Below are positions 1,986 to 10,305 of a stretch of 63,690 bases of DNA, one piece after another (positions within the stretch are counted from its first letter, which is position 1; each line of letters begins with the position of its first letter). The position numbers were made by a program, and so were the translations under genes. Origin of the DNA: an uncultured Pseudomonadota bacterium. GTDB taxonomy: Bacteria > Myxococcota_A > UBA796 > SXON01. The notes beneath the pieces were generated by a model. That model did no database searches, was not told where the DNA came from, and saw only the letters and a program-made list of their open reading frames with translations. The stretch spans positions 1-63,690 of the forward strand of contig CAIXRH010000260.1 of NCBI GenBank assembly GCA_903921785.1, given 5' to 3'.

Positions 1986-3371
1986 ATGCTGTCTAACGAA
2001 CCCCACTCGTCACCCAACCCCCCCTCCGTGCTCGATGCGCTCGGCATCCTCGGCTGGCGCTCCCGCGAGCCGATCGTCCTCGCGGCGCTCGCGACGGAGG
2101 AGCCGCTGCTCCTCGTCGGCCCCCACGGCACGGCCAAAAGCCTGCTCCTCGAACGGCTCGCCGAGGCGATGGCGCTCCGCCTGCGTCACTACAACGCCTC
2201 GATCCTCAACTTCGACGACCTCATCGGGTTCCCCGTCCCCGACGGCGACGCCGTGCGGTACCTGCGCACGCCCGGCGACGCCTGGGACGCCGAGGCGGTC
2301 TTCGTCGACGAGCTCAGCCGCTGCCGCCCGGACATGCAGAACCGCCTGCTCCCGCTGATCCACGAGCGTCGCCTCCAGGGCCGCCGCCTCGACGCGCTCC
2401 GCTACCGGTGGTCCGCGATGAACCCGCCGCCCCCGCCGGACGCCGAACCGGAGGATGAGCGCTACGTCGGCGCGGAGCCGCTCGACGCCGCGCTCGCCGA
2501 CCGCTTCGCCTTCATCCTGGAGGTACCCGGGCTGCCGTTCGGGGAGGACCGCCTGCGCCTGATCCGTGGGCCGCAGGTGGCCGAAGACGCGGGGGCCCGC
2601 CTTCGGGACGCCGTCGCGACGGTTCGGGGGGGACTCCGCACGGTGGAGCAGGTCCATGGGGAGGCGGTCGCCCGGTACGTGGATGTCGTCGGGGACGTGC
2701 TCGCTCGGGCGCATCTGCCGCTGTCGGGGCGTCGTCTCCGCTTCCTGTTCCGGAACATCCTGGCGGTCGCCGCGACGTGGGTGGCGTCGATCGAGGACGC
2801 CGCCATGATGGCGCTCACCTGGTCGATGCCGCAGCGCGCGTCGGGGCGGGTCGACGAGGAGGCGCTCGTGCGTGCCCACCACGTGGCGTTGCAGGTGCTT
2901 CAAGCCCCGCTCTCGAGCAGCCAGCGTGAGCTGCTGCGCGAGCGCGACCCGGTGCAGCGCGTGTGTATCGCCCTGCGGGACGACGACGACGATCTGCTCG
3001 CGGCCACGCTGCTGGACGCCCGGGCCTCCCTGGGCACGGCCGAGCGCCTCGCGCTCTCGTCGAGGCTCTTCCCGATCGTGGTCGCGACCCGCCCGGGGGT
3101 GCCGGCCATCGCGCTGGAGGCGTTGGCCGAGGACGTCGCGAAGCTCAACCGGGTCGTGGAGCGCAGCGAATCGGTGTCCACCGCGGACCGACAGTACCAG
3201 CGCGCGGGGGAGATCTCGCGGGCCATCAGCCGGCTCGAGGGCCCCGACCGGTGGGTCGCCGAGGTGCTCTGGGCGGCCTGGGAGGAGGGCTTCGACCTGT
3301 CCGCGGACGCGGTCGTGGTCTTCGCCCTCTCCACCGCTGCGGCGCTCGCGCCGTTCCGGAGGGCGGCATGA
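1986..3371 (+). CDS. MoxR-family AAA+ ATPase (461 aa)
   Basis: ATP-driven remodelling ATPase of the MoxR clade, which usually works with VWA-domain partners. Walker A is GPHGTAKS (residues 45-52), the GxxGTAKS form typical of MoxR. Walker B reads VFVDELSR about residues 106-113, and sensor 1/arginine-finger-like segments (WSAMNPPPPP, LADRFAF) follow. The C-terminal 200 residues are helical and not assigned. The ATG at 1986 is chosen because GGAGG sits 6 bases upstream, although the frame is open further back. Its stop overlaps the next start (ATGA), placing it first in a four-gene coupled operon with a metallopeptidase/VWA protein. Family function is chaperone-like activation of a partner complex; the substrate here is unknown. 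Confidence 0.88.
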   Translation: MLSNEPHSSPNPPSVLDALGILGWRSREPIVLAALATEEPLLLVGPHGTAKSLLLERLAEAMALRLRHYNASILNFDDLIGFPVPDGDAVRYLRTPGDAWDAEAVFVDELSRCRPDMQNRLLPLIHERRLQGRRLDALRYRWSAMNPPPPPDAEPEDERYVGAEPLDAALADRFAFILEVPGLPFGEDRLRLIRGPQVAEDAGARLRDAVATVRGGLRTVEQVHGEAVARYVDVVGDVLARAHLPLSGRRLRFLFRNILAVAATWVASIEDAAMMALTWSMPQRASGRVDEEALVRAHHVALQVLQAPLSSSQRELLRERDPVQRVCIALRDDDDDLLAATLLDARASLGTAERLALSSRLFPIVVATRPGVPAIALEALAEDVAKLNRVVERSESVSTADRQYQRAGEISRAISRLEGPDRWVAEVLWAAWEEGFDLSADAVVVFALSTAAALAPFRRAA

Positions 3372-3889
3372 TTCAGCGCGTGCAACCTGTGTTCGGCCCC
3401 GGGGGGCGGTATCCGACCCTCCAAGGCCTCTGCGGTGGCGGGATCGACCTGGTGTTCAACATGAGCGCGCCACCCCGCTCCCACGTGCGCGTCGGCTCAG
3501 GGATCGAGTCCCGGAACGGGGCGTACTTCGACCTGACCGGCGCCGACGTGCCGGCGGACCTCGGGGACGACGTCCTGGCCCTCGCGGCCTTCGTCGGCGT
3601 GGACCCGGGCAGCGACGCCGAGGCCGCCCTGGAGCGGGCGACGGAGAGGGTGCTCGAGGCGGTGAACGCGCCGATCGCCGCGGTTGCGGTGGTCGCCGCA
3701 CCCGACAGCGTGCACCGGGTGCTCGCGCCTCCCTGCCCGGACCGCCTCCTCGCGGTGGCGGTCCTTTCGCGGACGTCTGGGCACCTCTTCCTGCGGGGGC
3801 GCTCGCCCCGCTTCATCCCGTCCCGGCTGCGCCGCGCGGTGCTCTTCCTCGACGATGCGCTCGGACGGTCGGCGGGGGGTGCGCAATGA
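3368..3889 (+). CDS. Unknown protein of the MoxR/VWA operon (173 aa)
   Basis: Not recognised. It starts at the ATG overlapping the MoxR stop and itself ends in an ATGA overlap with the metallopeptidase/VWA gene, so it is almost certainly made in stoichiometric coupling with both. It opens with a Gly-rich stretch (GPGGRYPTLQGLCGGG), has an acidic helical middle (about residues 75-100) and a hydrophobic beta-alpha core (AVAVVAAPDSVHRVLAPP), and ends in an Arg-rich amphipathic helix. There is no signal peptide or membrane segment, so it is probably cytoplasmic. By position it could be an adaptor or substrate-recognition subunit, but that is only inference from operon order. Confidence 0.8.
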   Translation: MIQRVQPVFGPGGRYPTLQGLCGGGIDLVFNMSAPPRSHVRVGSGIESRNGAYFDLTGADVPADLGDDVLALAAFVGVDPGSDAEAALERATERVLEAVNAPIAAVAVVAAPDSVHRVLAPPCPDRLLAVAVLSRTSGHLFLRGRSPRFIPSRLRRAVLFLDDALGRSAGGAQ

Positions 3890-5202
3890 AGTCCATTCCG
3901 GCTCGCCTTCGCGACTGCATCCCCCTGCTCGGCTACGGCCTCATCCCGCTCGTGGAGCTCTTCTCGGTGGAGGAGACGCGGACGATCCCGACGGCCGCCG
4001 TGCCCTTGGGCGGCTCTCCCCGCCTGCTGCTGAACCCGGACTTCGTGGCGGCGAACTGTCGCACGGACCACGACCTGGCGATGCTGGTGCTCCACGAGCT
4101 GCACCACGTGCTCCTCGGGCACACGCGGCTCTTCCCGCGGATCACCCCGTTGCACAACCTCGCCTTCGACGCGGTGATCAACGCGATGCTCTGCCGCCGC
4201 AACCCCGGCCCGGAGTGGACGGCCTTCTTCCGGAGGATGTACGCGGCCGATCGCTTCCCGGACCTGCTCCTTCGTCCGCCGGAGGGCTTCCCGGAGCGGC
4301 GCTTCTTCCCGCCGTCGCTCCCCACGCCCATCCGTCGGCTGATGCGGGACCTTTACTACACCCCTCACGGCACGTTCCACGAGGTCTTCGAGGTGCTGCT
4401 GAGCTCGCGGTTCCTGTCGGCGATCGACGTCCAGCTCCTGGGGAACCACGACGAGGACGCCCGCGGCCTGGAGGTCGGGGACAACCCGTCCCTCTTCGCG
4501 GCTGTGCGCCGCATTGTCGAGCGCTGGCCGCAGCCGGAGGACCCGCGGGTGGGGCGGTCGATGCAGGAGGCGATGGGGACGATGGTCGTCCCGCCGCCGA
4601 GCCGGTCCCCGGTCGACGTGGTGCGCACCGCGCTCCTCGCGGCCGCCCGCGCGGGAAGCGTGAGCCGTGGCCGTCGGGGTCAGCCCCCCATGGCCGGGGA
4701 GGTCGCCTGGCCCACCTCCGACCGCCGCGCCTTCGCGCTCACGGCGTCCGGGGAGCGGCCGCTGCTCTACCGCGGCCCCCTCGCCGGCCCCCGCCGTCCC
4801 CAGGGGATCACGCCGATCGACGTGTACGTCGACGTCTCGGGGAGCACCTCCCGGTGGATCGGGGCGATGCTCGAGGCGATCCGCGGGTGTCGGGACCTGC
4901 TCTCGCCGTCCCTCTACAGCTTCGACGTCACGCTCCAGCGGATCAGCGCCGCCGATCTCTCCCGGCGTCGCGTGCGGTTCGGGGGCGGGACGAGCGGGGA
5001 GGTGGTCACGGCCGACATCGCTCGCCGTCGCCCGCGCTCCGCCGTGATCTTGACGGACGGGTACGTCGGCCCGATCCCCCCCGAACATGTCGCCGCCTGC
5101 CGGGCGGCCCAGTTGCAGGTGGTGCTCACCCCCGGCGGGTTCCGGGACGACCTCGCCCCGGTGGCGAAGGCGTTCCACTACATCCCGGAGGGGACGCCAT
5201 GA
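3886..5202 (+). CDS. Metallopeptidase-like plus VWA-domain protein (DUF2201-type, 438 aa)
   Basis: Two-domain protein. The N-terminal half carries HELHH (residues 70-74) followed by GH at 78-79, the HExxHxxxGH zinc-peptidase motif. The C-terminal half has a von Willebrand A fold with a MIDAS motif DVSGS at residues 316-320, GGGTS about 366-370 and LTDGYVG further on. This architecture matches the putative metallopeptidase/VWA-like family known as DUF2201, whose members commonly pair with MoxR ATPases. It overlaps both neighbours by 4 bases. Likely role: the ATPase acts on the VWA metal site to assemble or activate the peptidase. Whether the HExxH is a working protease is unproven. Start fixed by the ATGA overlap. 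Confidence 0.85.
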   Translation: MKSIPARLRDCIPLLGYGLIPLVELFSVEETRTIPTAAVPLGGSPRLLLNPDFVAANCRTDHDLAMLVLHELHHVLLGHTRLFPRITPLHNLAFDAVINAMLCRRNPGPEWTAFFRRMYAADRFPDLLLRPPEGFPERRFFPPSLPTPIRRLMRDLYYTPHGTFHEVFEVLLSSRFLSAIDVQLLGNHDEDARGLEVGDNPSLFAAVRRIVERWPQPEDPRVGRSMQEAMGTMVVPPPSRSPVDVVRTALLAAARAGSVSRGRRGQPPMAGEVAWPTSDRRAFALTASGERPLLYRGPLAGPRRPQGITPIDVYVDVSGSTSRWIGAMLEAIRGCRDLLSPSLYSFDVTLQRISAADLSRRRVRFGGGTSGEVVTADIARRRPRSAVILTDGYVGPIPPEHVAACRAAQLQVVLTPGGFRDDLAPVAKAFHYIPEGTP

Positions 5203-6269
5203 TCGACCTCGCCGAGGCCGTCCTCCCCGGTCACCCCGACAAGCTGTGCGACTGCATCGCCGACCGCCTTGTGGACGCCGCGATCGCCCGGCACCCTCGC
5301 GCGCTCGTGGGCGTCGAGGTGGCGATCCACCGCGACACCGTCTTCGTGACGGGGTGCATCACGACCTCTCCGCCGATGACGCCGGACGACGTCGACGGCG
5401 TGGTCCGGGACGTGCTCGCCCGCGCCGGCTACGGCCCCGAGTGGCCCCCGGACCCGTCCGCCGTGCGCGTGCTCACGGACCTGCGCCTCGAGCCGATGGA
5501 CGACGCGCTCTCCGCCTTGCGATCGGTCTCTGACGACCAGGCGATCACGATCGGCTGGGCGGGGGGAGTTGCCGAGAACCGTTCGCTCCCGGCCGCCCAC
5601 CGCCTCGCCTGGCGGCTCGCCCTCCTCCTCGACGAACGCCGGGGCTCCCTCGGGCTCGGTCCCGACGGGAAGGTGGTGGTCGGACTGCCCGCGCTCGGGC
5701 CCCCTCGCGTCAGCTTCTCGATGCATCACCGCCCCGGAGCCGACCGCACCGCCCTCTTCGCCCTCGCCCAGTCCGTGGTGGAGGCGGCCGGGCTCGTCGG
5801 CGTGGCGCCCGAGGTCAACGGCGGCGGTGACTTTGACGTCGGGGGTTCGATGGGGGACAACGGGCTCTCGGGGAAGAAGCTCGTGGTGGACGCCTACGGG
5901 CCGAGCGTGCCCATCGGCGGCGGGGCGTGGAGCGGCAAGGACCCGCACAAGGTGGACCGTCTCGGGGCGATCCGGGCGCGTCACCTGGCCCGGGTGGCGG
6001 TGGAGCGCGGGCTCGCTCGGCAGGCGCTCGTCCGCTTCGGCTGGTTCCCCGGGGACCGCGCGCCGTCGCTCGCCGAGCTCGTCCTCGACGGCCGCCCCGC
6101 CGACCTTCGCCTCCTCGGCCCCGTCGACCTCACCATCGCCGGCACCGTCCGCGACCTCGACCTTACCCGCGTCCGCTACGCCCCTCGCGCCGCCCGGGCG
6201 AGTTGGTTCCAGGAGCCGGCCCCCTGGGAGGGGCGGGACGCCGCGGTGGCGGGGCGCCTTGTGGGGTGA
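5199..6269 (+). CDS. Divergent S-adenosylmethionine synthetase (356 aa)
   Basis: Methionine adenosyltransferase homologue, which makes SAM from ATP and methionine. It keeps GHPDK (residues 11-15), a DDQ segment where housekeeping enzymes have GAGDQG, GDNGLSGKK (family GDxGLTGRK, so Arg becomes Lys) and GGGAWSGKDPHKVDR carrying the two active-site lysines. It lacks the usual SESVxEGHPDK lead-in and is shorter than the roughly 380-aa norm. It ends a coupled operon with a MoxR ATPase and a VWA metallopeptidase, a very unusual place for metK, so it is probably a specialised enzyme (local SAM supply or a SAM-like nucleotide) rather than the only MetK of the cell. Start fixed by the ATGA overlap with the VWA gene. 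Confidence 0.82.
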   Translation: MIDLAEAVLPGHPDKLCDCIADRLVDAAIARHPRALVGVEVAIHRDTVFVTGCITTSPPMTPDDVDGVVRDVLARAGYGPEWPPDPSAVRVLTDLRLEPMDDALSALRSVSDDQAITIGWAGGVAENRSLPAAHRLAWRLALLLDERRGSLGLGPDGKVVVGLPALGPPRVSFSMHHRPGADRTALFALAQSVVEAAGLVGVAPEVNGGGDFDVGGSMGDNGLSGKKLVVDAYGPSVPIGGGAWSGKDPHKVDRLGAIRARHLARVAVERGLARQALVRFGWFPGDRAPSLAELVLDGRPADLRLLGPVDLTIAGTVRDLDLTRVRYAPRAARASWFQEPAPWEGRDAAVAGRLVG

Positions 6270-6292
6270 GGGGAGCGGATGCCGGTCACCCC
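6263..6292. terminator. Inverted repeat between convergent genes
   Basis: GGGGTGA (6263-6269) and TCACCCC (6286-6292) form a perfect 7-bp stem around a 16-base loop. Each arm contains the stop codon of one of the two convergent genes. There is no T-tract, as is common at this GC content. A bidirectional terminator is plausible but untested. Confidence 0.4.
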
Positions 6293-6507
6293 GCCGCGCG
6301 AAGGCGAGCTTCGAGGGCGGCGAACTCCGTGCACGAAGCCGCTTCCACCATCCCGTCTATTTCCTTGGTCTCCCGGAGGACTTCGCCGACGTCTCCATCC
6401 ACGCACAGCGGCATCGTCGCTCCGCCGACGAACACCAGAGGCAGCTTCACGACCTCGAGGGCGGCAGCCGCGCGATCCAGGCGATCGAACTGTTCCCTTC
6501 GCGTCAT
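6286..6507 (-). pseudogene. Truncated nucleotidyltransferase (AbiEii/MNT-like) fragment, 73 aa
   Basis: N-terminal fragment of the nucleotidyltransferase-fold toxin-like family that sits beside winged-helix regulators. It has FVGGATMPLCVDG and then ETKEIDGMVE where the family has an (R/P)TKDVDVxVE metal-binding motif: the first catalytic Asp is Glu and the surrounding motif is altered. The reading frame stops after EARLRAAG, about a third of the usual length, just 17 bases from the convergent SAM synthetase gene. ATGA overlap with the upstream regulator fixes the start. Both the truncation and the motif change point to an inactive relic of a toxin-antitoxin-like module. Confidence 0.6.
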
Positions 6508-7058
6508 GGTGCCAGTCCCGCTGCGTGCTGCGCGGCGAGCCAACGCGTGTCGCGGCCGGTCTCGGCGAGGAGTTGCTCCAACTCGATCACCGCGAGGCTG
6601 CGCTCGCGTGCTCGGCCGACCCTCAGGGCGTCGATCAAGGCCAGCGCCGCGTAGAGGCGCGCGTCCGCCGCCGCCGCCTCGGGCACCGCGGGGTGAAGGG
6701 GTACGAGGGCGCGACCGAGCACGCCTGCCGGAGCCGGCCAGACGTAGGATTCGACGAAGGTCAGAAGATCGCGCAACGGCGGCGCCGCGTGAGCGGTGGG
6801 CAGGCCGACGACCTGCTCACCCAGGCCGGCCGGGAACGCGAACGGAATGCCGTGAGCGGCGAACAACGCGAAGGCGTGGGTGCGCAAGCTGCGGTCGCTG
6901 CGCCGATAGAGCCCCGCGTGTTCTAGTCGTCCCAAGGACATGTGGGCCTGAGACGGAGAGATTCCAATCGCGCCTGCGAGTCGTTCGTACGTCCACGCGG
7001 CGGTGTCAGCCCACAAGTGCGCCTTCAGGCCGACGACCACGTCGAGAGGCTTCAGCAT
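6504..7058 (-). CDS. Winged-helix regulator of a nucleotidyltransferase module (184 aa)
   Basis: DNA-binding protein with an N-terminal winged helix (TYERLAGAIGISPSQAHMSL, about residues 23-42) followed by GLPTAHAAPPL and a C-terminal helix rich in Leu and Glu. Proteins of this shape are often the upstream partner of nucleotidyltransferase-fold genes, and the overlapping downstream gene is a truncated member of that family. It therefore probably acted as antitoxin or autorepressor. The ATG at 7058 lies 5 bases downstream (minus strand) of an inverted repeat at 7064-7082, consistent with autoregulation. The protein itself looks intact. Confidence 0.75.
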   Translation of the reverse strand: MLKPLDVVVGLKAHLWADTAAWTYERLAGAIGISPSQAHMSLGRLEHAGLYRRSDRSLRTHAFALFAAHGIPFAFPAGLGEQVVGLPTAHAAPPLRDLLTFVESYVWPAPAGVLGRALVPLHPAVPEAAAADARLYAALALIDALRVGRARERSLAVIELEQLLAETGRDTRWLAAQHAAGLAP

Positions 7059-7063
7059 TGATG

Positions 7064-7104: not shown

Positions 7105-7180
7105 CTGGTGGTGGCCGGCGAGTTCGGGCGGCGAGTGCTTCGGGTAACGGTTGCCCTCCGGCCCCCCCTCACCCGATCGC
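7105..7180. repeat. Intergenic repeat, copy 1 (second copy 14481-14565)
   Basis: The stretch following mcrC (minus strand) shares strings such as GTGGTGGCCGGCG, GGCGGCGAG and ACGGTTGCCC with 14481-14565. The similar block includes the mcrC stop region, so it may mark the 3' border of a duplicated segment rather than a free repeat. Confidence 0.5.
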
Positions 7181-8602
7181 CTCCATCAACGCCGTCCGCC
7201 CCTTCTCTGCGGATGCCCCCAGCGGCAGCGCACAGACCACCAGGTCCACTCGCCGGCCGGCGGCCGTCGCGACCGTGGCCCGAGCGTGGGTGCGTCCGCG
7301 CTCGCTGAGCGACGCCCAGCGCTCGGACCTGCATGGGTATGCCAGCACTGCCGTCACTCTTTCCGTGGCGAAGAGCGAGGAGTAGGCGAGCGCCTGGAGC
7401 ACGTCGTCGCGGTGAACCTCCCGCTCGTCTTCGCGGAGCCCGGCCCGACCCTGGGCGCCGAGCGCCTCGCCGTGAGGCTTGTACTTCGCGTCGATCACGA
7501 TGGTGCGGTCGGAACGCGCGAGCACCAGATCGGGGAGCAACGACTTCATGCCTCCTCCTCCTCGCGGCTCCCAATGGAGAGGGACGCGGGTCGCCTCGGT
7601 GCGGCCAGCGCGCAGAACGGCGCCGATACGCTGGCTCACCCCATCGGCCAGCGACTCCACCCACGCCTCGAAGAACCGCTCCATGTCGAGCCGCCACGAG
7701 AGACCGGTCGTCTCGACCACCCCCGCGAGGCCTGTCTCGTCTGCGGTCCAGCCCACGGCTTCGAGCCCATCGCGGAAGACCTGCGATCTGAGCGGCTCGC
7801 GCGCCCATCGGTCCCGATCCGAGGACACCGGCCGGAGCTGGAGGGAGCCGCCGACCGCCGCGAGGATTCGCTCGCAACGGTCCAGAAGCGGGCGGAGCGC
7901 ACCCATGCCGCCGCTGGCTGCCGCACCCCGAAGTCCCTCCATCTGGCGACGTACAACCCAGTGGATGGCGGCACGGAGGCGCTCATCATCCCGCAGGTCC
8001 GGGTAAGCGCAGGGCACGGCGAGGGGCCTGCAGCGCGCAAGCCCGTCGGTGGCCCATCGTCCGACGTCAACCTGTCCTCGCGGTGCGGGGAGCACCGCGC
8101 GGGTGACGACGAACCGACGGGTCAGGCTCTGGAGGAGGGCCTCGACCCGTGCCAGGACGACGCTCGCGAGAACCCAGGGCGGGATTGATTTTTCGGACTG
8201 CGGCAGCGTCGGGAGCGGGAGCAGCTCAGGCGTCACCCTGAAGCCCGCGACCCCGAGCGCCTCCCCAATCGACAGCCACGAGAACCGTGGCGAGACGACG
8301 AGACCGAAGTCCGTGCGTCCGGTGGCGGGCGAGCGGAGTGGGATGGCGCCGACACGGGTCGACGTGCGCACGGTCAGGCCGGCGAGCCCGCCTCGCCGGG
8401 TCGGCTCCGCATCCACGTTCAGGGCGCGCAGAACGCCGGCGTTGGTGGACAGGAGGCTCTCCGCGTACTTCTCCAGCGCCGCGCCACGGCTGGCGTCGCC
8501 AAGCCAGCCCGCGACCGAGACGAAGGCCGTGGAGCAGTCGGGGATCGCCCGACTCCCAGCATCGAGTCGGGTTGGCGGGCGCGCCCTGGGCTTGACCGCC
8601 AC
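7169..8602 (-). CDS. mcrC: McrC-like PD-(D/E)xK nuclease subunit (477 aa)
   Basis: Nuclease partner of a type IV (modification-dependent) McrBC-type restriction system. The C-terminal half contains the PD-(D/E)xK core: PDL with Asp358, then VIDAKYK with Asp371 and Lys373. The N-terminal half is less conserved and probably contacts the McrB ring. I place the start at the GTG 8602, one base after the mcrB stop, because a longer TTG start at 8680 would be buried in mcrB; there is no strong Shine-Dalgarno for either. It follows mcrB on the same strand, as expected for a two-subunit complex that cleaves modified foreign DNA. The recognised modification cannot be read from the sequence. Confidence 0.8.
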   Translation of the reverse strand: MAVKPRARPPTRLDAGSRAIPDCSTAFVSVAGWLGDASRGAALEKYAESLLSTNAGVLRALNVDAEPTRRGGLAGLTVRTSTRVGAIPLRSPATGRTDFGLVVSPRFSWLSIGEALGVAGFRVTPELLPLPTLPQSEKSIPPWVLASVVLARVEALLQSLTRRFVVTRAVLPAPRGQVDVGRWATDGLARCRPLAVPCAYPDLRDDERLRAAIHWVVRRQMEGLRGAAASGGMGALRPLLDRCERILAAVGGSLQLRPVSSDRDRWAREPLRSQVFRDGLEAVGWTADETGLAGVVETTGLSWRLDMERFFEAWVESLADGVSQRIGAVLRAGRTEATRVPLHWEPRGGGGMKSLLPDLVLARSDRTIVIDAKYKPHGEALGAQGRAGLREDEREVHRDDVLQALAYSSLFATERVTAVLAYPCRSERWASLSERGRTHARATVATAAGRRVDLVVCALPLGASAEKGRTALMEAIG

Positions 8603-8603
8603 C

Positions 8604-10118
8604 TCAGGTCGTCGCACTGCGGCTCCGCGCCTCCGCCTCCGCTTCCGCCCAGTCCAGCACAGCACGAAGCTCGTCGGCAAAGCCAGAGACGAAACCCTGG
8701 GCGATGTACTCGGACAGGAGCGGCCGAAGCCCCGTGCGGAGGCACGTCGCCTCGCTCATCCCTGGCGGGGCGATGAAGTACGAGGGTCCCGGGATCAGCG
8801 TGAACGCCTCGGCGGCGGCGTACTCGATGAACACCCGCAGGACCTCGTCGAAGGCGTCCAGCATGACCGTACGACCGTTGGCAGCCTGGTCCTTCAACCA
8901 CGAACGATCCGGCCACAGGGCCTGGAACGCGAACCTACGGCGAACTGCAACGTCCAGGATCGCGATGCTGCGGTCGGCGCTGTTCATCGTCCCGAGGACG
9001 TCGAGGTTGTCCGGGAGGTCCAGCTCGCGCTTGCCGCCGAACACCAGGGGCAGCTCGACCGTGCGGCGCTTCCCAGGCTCGAACAAGAAGATCGCTTCGC
9101 CCAAAACCTTGGCGAGGTCCGCGCGGTTGATCTCGTCCAGGACGAGCAAGTAGCGCTCGCCGTTGCGGAGCTCTCGGGCGGCCTCGGCGGCGCGAATCAG
9201 CACTCCCGCCTCCGGGGCGAAGGTCACGCCAAGACCCCCGGTTGTCTCGCGGGGCATCAGCCCGCCGACAAAGCTCTCGTAGGTCGTTCCGGGGTGAAAC
9301 TGTCGGGTCGTACCCCGGCCGCCATAGTGCTCCTCGAGCACGCGCCCGGCGAGCTCGGACTTTCCCGTCCCGGGCGGGCCCTCCAGCACTGCGAACCGCC
9401 GCGCCCTCAGCAACTCGACGACGGCCTGGTCGCTCGTTCGCGGCAAAAGGGTGCTCATCCAGCCATCCCGGTGTCGGTCGGCGTCAGCCCGGTTGGCTGC
9501 AGTGGGCTCGATTCCGCGTTCACCGAGGGTGAGGTCGATCAGCGCTGCGAAAGCGATGCGGGCGTCCTCGTCGCTTTCGGCGGTTCGGACGCGGGGGAGT
9601 CGGACCAGTGCATAGGTGCATGGCCCATACTTTTTTGCGAGGGCATCGCCGATCCCGAACGTTCGGAGCACCGTCTGAGGCAGAGCAAGGTCGATTCGCA
9701 CGGGGTCGTTCTTCGCCCATGCGGGCAGGCGGGTCGAGAGCCACCGTGCGATCGCGGCGACCTTCCGAGCGTGGCCGGGGCGCCCGAGGATGGCTTCGTC
9801 GGGGGCAAGACCAGAGGTCCCCACCACCATTCCCAACAGGGCGGGCTCGCCGGCCTCCGAGGACGGGAACATCACGAAACTCATCCCGCCGTACGGTCCG
9901 CTCCGTTCCTGCTCCGGTGGGATGAGCGCGGCATACGGCATCGCGCCTTCCTTCGTGTCTGCGTTCACGCGAAGTTGGAAGCGCTTTTCGTCGTTTCGGG
10001 GGTCGGTGAGGTCCCTGACGCGAGGATAGCGACCACCGATTGACGCGGCGAAGGCTGCGCGCGCGGAGCCCTCCCAGGCGGCGACCGGTTGGTATGCGAG
10101 GTTGACCAACTCGAGCAT
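8604..10118 (-). CDS. mcrB: McrB-like AAA+ GTPase/ATPase (504 aa)
   Basis: Motor subunit of an McrBC-like restriction system. Walker A is GPPGTGKSE with Lys253. LVLDEINRADLAKVLGE is the McrB-type Walker B, and TMNSADRSIAILDVAVRRRF the sensor/arginine-finger region, both diagnostic of the McrB clade. The first 200 residues are a different domain that probably recognises the modified base; it has no obvious EVE or DUF3578 signature by eye. The ATG at 10118 is used because GGAGA lies 6 bases upstream. mcrC follows after one base. A TPR gene lies just upstream on the same strand, but the 190-base gap and its own operator suggest separate transcription. Confidence 0.85.
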   Translation of the reverse strand: MLELVNLAYQPVAAWEGSARAAFAASIGGRYPRVRDLTDPRNDEKRFQLRVNADTKEGAMPYAALIPPEQERSGPYGGMSFVMFPSSEAGEPALLGMVVGTSGLAPDEAILGRPGHARKVAAIARWLSTRLPAWAKNDPVRIDLALPQTVLRTFGIGDALAKKYGPCTYALVRLPRVRTAESDEDARIAFAALIDLTLGERGIEPTAANRADADRHRDGWMSTLLPRTSDQAVVELLRARRFAVLEGPPGTGKSELAGRVLEEHYGGRGTTRQFHPGTTYESFVGGLMPRETTGGLGVTFAPEAGVLIRAAEAARELRNGERYLLVLDEINRADLAKVLGEAIFLFEPGKRRTVELPLVFGGKRELDLPDNLDVLGTMNSADRSIAILDVAVRRRFAFQALWPDRSWLKDQAANGRTVMLDAFDEVLRVFIEYAAAEAFTLIPGPSYFIAPPGMSEATCLRTGLRPLLSEYIAQGFVSGFADELRAVLDWAEAEAEARSRSATT

Positions 10119-10305
10119 GAGGTCTCCGAAGGGGACCACCGTACCAGGTCGACGGGGAGAAGGAAACGTGTCGTCGGCTCCGGGCTCACTCGCGGATCCG
10201 GCAGGGGGTGGGTCGTGTGGTACGCACACGGCGCGCTGCCCAGCGAGTGGTTGGGTCGCCTCTCCGGGCTACACCCCGGGCCAGGTGCCAGCGCGTCGCG
10301 CCCGC

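Follow-up and report, generated by a model that had tools for sequence, protein, structure and literature searches.

The nitric oxide reductase chaperone NorQ-NorD joins a MoxR ATPase to a VWA protein with a MIDAS, and the pair is found beside the enzyme on which it acts. The CbbQ-CbbO rubisco activase likewise combines a MoxR motor with a VWA/MIDAS adaptor beside a metabolic enzyme; this MoxR-VWA pair activates the enzyme encoded next to it and depends on its MIDAS to do so (PMC4660213). The MoxR-vWA ternary conflict systems (Kaur et al. 2020, PMC7159879) are built on a MoxR and vWA core to which a third component is added. Few cofactors are used as widely as SAM, and a single housekeeping enzyme has so far been held responsible for making it. 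In the literature consulted, SAM riboswitches are said to control genes for SAM and methionine, metK for one, and a search of open-access main texts found neither a paper joining them to MoxR/VWA genes nor a description of the four-gene unit analyzed here. The locus described here places a MoxR and VWA pair beside a divergent MetK-like protein, which we term MetKv.

The four-gene cassette and its upstream aptamer

The cassette consists of four plus-strand genes at positions 1986-6269 of the window (the whole 63,690-nucleotide stretch of DNA that was analyzed), in a source genome of 7.5 Mb. The first gene (1986..3371, +) encodes a MoxR-family AAA+ ATPase of 461 aa that matches PF07728 (AAA_5, 2.4e-11) and reaches the bpMoxR model PF20030 exactly at its cut-off, a point of likeness to the ternary conflict systems. 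The second (3368..3889, +) encodes a 173-aa protein in the linker position with an N-terminal NMSAPPR motif. The third (3886..5202, +) encodes a 438-aa protein with a DUF2201-like zinc metallopeptidase domain (HELHH) and a VWA domain with a MIDAS, for which the Pfam matches to VWA_CoxE and DUF2201 are sub-threshold (for DUF2201, 15.9 bits versus a cut-off of 23.2). The fourth (5199..6269, +) encodes the 356-aa MetKv, a putative MetK-like adenosyltransferase with an altered methionine site; its MAT N- and C-terminal domains score above cut-off (PF00438, S-AdoMet_synt_N, 4e-16; PF02773, S-AdoMet_synt_C, 3e-22), and the central-domain model PF02772 has no match in it. Each stop codon overlaps the next start by 4 bp, which bears out the overlapping genes claimed in an earlier reading made from the sequence alone (the sequence-only reading), and the MetK motifs listed there, GHPDK, SDDQ, GLSGKK, and SGKDPHKVDR, were all found in the protein. 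The operon starts upstream of the boundary drawn in that reading, which had overlooked a SAM-II riboswitch aptamer (SAM_alpha, RF00521; 1862..1938, +) lying 47 nt 5' of the MoxR start codon. This aptamer scores 41.1 bits against a gathering cut-off of 36, is the sole above-cut-off Rfam match in the window, and is the genome's only RF00521 site even when E values up to 1 are admitted; SAM-I/IV gave no match there. On the canonical-metK contig (L044), a tRNA was the sole Rfam match.

The signature residues of the ATPase and of the metallopeptidase-VWA protein are well maintained. The Walker lysine, the Walker B DE, and LADRF are conserved in 11 MoxR orthologues of the window family, and in a larger set of 56 the Walker A pattern was present in 53, the ADRF finger in 54, and Walker B, by a strict pattern, in 38. 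All 66 orthologues of the VWA protein have both HExxHxxxxH and the MIDAS DxSxS, and the MIDAS residues D316, S318, S320, T369, and D391 are invariant in 28 sequences; 8 of 10 family members matched DUF2201_N at E up to 0.1, the best at 5.5e-7. A structural model of the VWA protein (pLDDT 80) was matched best by VWA domains; Foldseek ranked NorD in NorQD complexes first among PDB matches, with the small metallopeptidase selecase further down. The small protein occupies the same position in most cassettes, with an N-terminal hNMSxPP[KR] motif; it has no Pfam family, and structure comparison found neither a PDB match within E 0.001 in Foldseek nor a VIA row reaching Z 2, results that do not by themselves show a new fold. 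The methionine of NMSAPPR was set aside as an adenosyl acceptor, the position being Y, L, S, or another residue in several cassettes.

Distribution, SAM aptamers, and neighboring genes

When the VWA protein was used as a query within the window's phylum, about ten genomes yielded relatives of full or nearly full length, with MoxR upstream and MetKv downstream of the VWA gene wherever the contig was long enough. In the converse search with a MetKv profile, 8 genomes scored 261 to 498 bits, all of them cassette carriers, and the rest scored at most 229 bits; the association of MetKv with the MoxR/VWA pair in this phylum thus holds from both directions. A scan of GTDB genomes with the MetKv core yielded 80 loci (175 relatives in all), in 59 of which MoxR and VWA both lie upstream, in order. 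A VWA gene without a recognized MoxR was seen in 17 (14 of which run out of DNA), three have no upstream DNA, and a single locus, L121, lacks VWA. The carriers belong to Myxococcota, Pseudomonadota, Acidobacteriota, Chloroflexota, Planctomycetota, Verrucomicrobiota, Gemmatimonadota, Nitrospirota, Kiritimatiellota, Lentisphaerota, Cloacimonadota, and Fidelibacterota; because almost every one is a metagenome assembly, an individual placement may be in error. An identical four-gene order in about a dozen phyla puts the cassette far beyond chance, and the recurring order and co-occurrence support the MetK variant as a real partner of the MoxR/VWA pair, as the sequence-only reading had supposed. 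Occurrence is patchy even inside a genus, the cassette being present in 2 of the 60 genomes of the Limnohabitans carrier's genus; Limnohabitans sp. 2KL-51 (record NZ_NESJ01000033.1) is among the carriers. A second, canonical metK was found on another contig of the source genome (G000:C234), and a MetK above the equivalog cut-off is also present in 42 of 49 MetKv-carrying genomes, the other seven of which may be incomplete assemblies.

SAM aptamers are a frequent companion of the cassette. Besides those in the window and at L034, L037, and L042, SAM-II, SAM-I, or SAM-I/IV aptamers above the Rfam cut-off precede 29 of 50 other cassettes in the same orientation; these 50 are the ones with upstream DNA, and as some are close relatives they do not amount to 50 independent cases. 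Eight more (L047, L048, L052, L060, L063, L106, L112, and L126) have weaker matches at the same place, and about a quarter of the scanned cassettes have no recognizable SAM aptamer. The sites are often exclusive to the cassette: 10 of the 15 genomes with SAM-I/IV sites have none outside the cassette contig, and in 6 of 11 other genomes searched for SAM-II that class occurs at the cassette alone. Across 12 cassette-linked SAM-II aptamers the P1 helix covaries, with five of its six pairs changing on both sides, and is 90% paired versus 21 to 59% when slid. A chance origin of the riboswitches was rejected, since nearly every SAM aptamer in the scanned loci is upstream of the cassette and on its strand. 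The exception is a SAM-I/IV aptamer at L111:7360-7471, which comes after a MerR-like/VWA gene pair. Predicted SAM aptamers 5' of the operon suggest that SAM controls the cassette, and that several riboswitch families have been recruited to these genes argues strongly, and independently, for a function concerned with SAM. By analogy, the predicted SAM-II element presumably turns the cassette on at low SAM. The sequence-only reading had suggested that the MetK variant could supply SAM or a SAM-derived signal that switches the ATPase/peptidase; the evidence points the opposite way, with SAM as the input that controls the operon through the riboswitch.

A survey of the flanks found no gene family widely recurrent outside the cassette. 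No SAM-using enzyme recurs beside it, and a methylation or radical-SAM operon was accordingly rejected. The neighbors that do recur in some loci are a VWA protein with a MerR-like regulator, DUF3293, and FGase. The pair of a MerR-like regulator and a plain VWA protein is near the cassette at L098, L108, L111, L069, and L075. In several Burkholderiales loci (L055, L084, L093, and L108) a DUF3293-type gene stands between the SAM-I/IV aptamer and MoxR, and is therefore probably in the same transcript; macro-domain proteins are near the cassette in two Burkholderiales loci (L055, 674-1216; L084, 12093-12617). A canonical-type metK adjoins the cassette in five loci from four phyla (L050, L057, L064, L106, and L112). 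At L106 (2180-3283) it lies four bases before MoxR and has N for the catalytic H14, with a weak SAM-I/IV aptamer further upstream of it (1758-1896). The cassette-side MetKs of the Acidobacteriota loci L050 (4585-5826) and L057 (6576-8618) group in the tree with Burkholderiales MetKs, which suggests that they were horizontally acquired. A related operon at L043 (450-4344, -), in which no MetK was seen, combines a MoxR gene with genes for a 358-aa protein and a VWA protein of DUF2201-like type; it may belong to a wider family from which the cassette arose. Within the window, two sets of minus-strand ORFs follow the cassette as judged by eye: at 6286-7060 a short ORF that carries a GGAT motif of nucleotidyltransferase type neighbors one with an HTH, possibly an AbiE-like toxin-antitoxin pair, and at 7169-10229 two adjacent ORFs resemble a McrB-like AAA+ GTPase and its McrC-like nuclease partner, a possible type IV restriction pair.

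The sequence-only reading had also raised a conflict-type role for the MoxR/VWA pair. The cassette might be an anti-phage device in which the drop in SAM caused by a SAM-degrading phage enzyme opens the riboswitch and the ATPase/metallopeptidase then halts the infection. Such phage enzymes are known (PMC7877911), MoxR-VWA pairs are found in conflict systems (PMC7159879), the distribution is patchy with phyla mixed in the MetK tree, and the McrBC-like pair lies downstream in the window. Set against this, the defence-family matches in the flanks, such as AbiEii and IetA, are isolated single-protein ones with no recurring defence neighbor, so a defence island was rejected; a search of 72,556 plasmids and 50,697 phage records with the VWA protein gave no match; and PADLOC gave no strong match for any of the four cassette proteins. 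With MetKv as query, tblastn of viral contigs found no relative of it, and the phage and plasmid matches, at 35% identity or less, were mostly annotated as ordinary MetK. The anti-phage explanation moreover leaves the MetK-type enzyme in every cassette unexplained. We regard it as very improbable, and the conflict-type role in general gains little from these data.

Family and active site of MetKv

The window MetKv scores 152 bits against the metK model TIGR01034, for which the equivalog cut-off is 309.4, and the MetKv proteins of other genomes score below 200 bits. Identity between MetKv and canonical MetK is 28 to 31%. In a tree of 99 rows, built by a quick method, the 65 variants and 34 canonical sequences form the two sides of one fully supported branch, and phyla are intermixed within the variant part, which suggests that MetKv spread by horizontal transfer. 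The variant is thus a clade of its own apart from canonical MetK, it is not the only copy in the genome, and its neighborhood is conserved in relatives; on all three points the result is the reverse of what the sequence-only reading had named as grounds for discarding the partnership.

Residues were surveyed in 76 variants and 36 canonical sequences, with numbering from Escherichia coli MetK (identical to PDB 7ll3). H14, D16, E42, D118, K165, F230, D238, K245, K265, and D271 are unchanged in practically all of the variants, and K269 is nearly always kept; the residues for ATP, Mg, and triphosphate (H14, D16, K165, F230, D238, K245, K265, and D271) are therefore retained. Five positions set the variants apart from all or nearly all canonical sequences. 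E55 has become R in 74 of the 76 variants and C in the other two, the window protein and its closest relative (L047), Q98 is missing in 73 (the alignment being gappy at that position), G117 is D in 75, R244 is K, and I302 is P in every one. Published work assigns E55 and D238 to the methionine amino group, and Q98 and K269 to its carboxyl group (PMC3853416, PMC1282579). E55, Q98, and I302 all shape or line the methionine pocket of E. coli MetK, and this part of the site is lost in MetKv. With the chemistry residues kept and these changed, MetKv probably keeps adenosyl-transfer chemistry and its acceptor binding is probably changed, although methionine may still be the acceptor.

The replacement or absence of E55, Q98, and I302 in almost all variants also means that methionine may not be the acceptor. 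MetKv could instead adenosylate a methylthio compound, the keto-acid analogue of methionine, or a peptide Met side chain to give a product other than SAM, with the MoxR/VWA/peptidase part handling the product or a protein substrate. The retention of the ATP, Mg, and triphosphate residues alongside changes at E55, Q98, G117, and I302 fits such an activity, as does the uniformity of the substitution set across phyla, which is unlike decay. However, D238 and K269 also take part in holding methionine and are conserved, a methionine site could be rebuilt from the new R55 and D117, archaeal MATs use different residues for methionine binding (PMC3853416), and SAM riboswitch control is better suited to SAM production. 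On balance we consider an altered acceptor somewhat unlikely. The fuller proposal, that MetKv founds a new class of adenosyltransferases that use ATP but modify something other than free methionine, are switched on by SAM shortage, and are equipped with a dedicated AAA+/metallopeptidase machine, seems to us distinctly unlikely; if the acceptor were indeed not methionine, an adenosyl-sulfonium compound or protein modification new to science would follow.

MetKv might alternatively be a regulatory partner of canonical MetK, as part of a mixed oligomer or as the recruiter of MoxR-VWA, making the cassette an activase for the housekeeping enzyme at low SAM. The remodeled segment of MetKv includes the dimer-dimer interface around residue 98 (PMC9202080), the activase precedent exists in CbbQO (PMC4660213), and canonical MetK coexists in the 42 genomes mentioned above and is encoded beside the cassette at the five loci L050, L057, L064, L106, and L112. 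In most loci, though, the canonical gene is elsewhere. Pseudoenzyme partners also usually lack catalytic residues, whereas MetKv keeps those for ATP. We give this alternative little credence.

Proposed role and comparison with known systems

The reading that we prefer, at about even confidence, is that the cassette serves as a response module for low SAM, its MoxR and VWA proteins activating the divergent adenosyltransferase MetKv in the manner of NorQD and CbbQO. A fall in SAM would stop the 5' riboswitch, whose position and class are observed, from repressing the operon, the direction being that of known SAM riboswitches. The MoxR and MIDAS-bearing VWA/metallopeptidase proteins, from their motifs and fold, would form a remodeling complex of the NorQ-NorD or CbbQ-CbbO kind. 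As in those systems the co-encoded enzyme would be the client, so that the complex would assemble or activate MetKv, and the small protein may act as an adaptor between the two halves. MetKv, judging from its conserved chemistry residues, would be an ATP-consuming S-adenosyltransferase using the MetK reaction mechanism, and would restore SAM, or a close equivalent, in cells that also have a housekeeping MetK.

The low-SAM module is favored by the fixed gene order, the two-way co-occurrence, the upstream SAM aptamers of three kinds, the conserved chemistry residues, the coexistence of canonical MetK in 42 of 49 genomes, and the canonical-type MetK adjoining five cassettes; client activation in particular is favored by NorQD as the top structural match and by the CbbQO precedent. 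Counting against the module are the changes at E55, Q98, and I302, the score of MetKv below the TIGR01034 equivalog cut-off, its lack of a PF02772 match, and the quarter or so of scanned cassettes with no recognizable SAM aptamer. The results point to a means of withstanding SAM shortage that has not been described before. A conserved cassette that is under SAM riboswitch control in most sampled cases would give many phyla a second, regulated SAM route or safeguard, and MetKv becomes a candidate client, with a simple enzyme assay, for MoxR-VWA chaperones, whose clients often lack identification.

Compared with NorQ-NorD, the cassette differs in having a MetK-like candidate client rather than a reductase, an HExxH domain on the VWA protein, a SAM riboswitch, and an extra small protein. 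CbbQ-CbbO serves a different enzyme, and the accessible text of PMC4660213 describes no metallopeptidase motif for CbbO and reports no riboswitch. Unlike the MoxR-vWA ternary systems, the cassette is not confined to multicellular bacteria and has a MetK-like enzyme and a SAM riboswitch instead; no VMAP, iSTAND, FtsH, or beta-propeller Pfam domain was seen in the window cassette, nor any effector. Its aptamers agree with the SAM-II, SAM-I, and SAM-I/IV riboswitches in scoring at or above the Rfam cut-offs and in lying in the 5' leader. MetKv, finally, shares with canonical MetK (TIGR01034) the N- and C-terminal MAT domains and the residues for ATP, Mg, and triphosphate, and it differs in E55R/C, the absence of Q98, G117D, R244K, and I302P, in forming a separate clade, and in its cassette context throughout.
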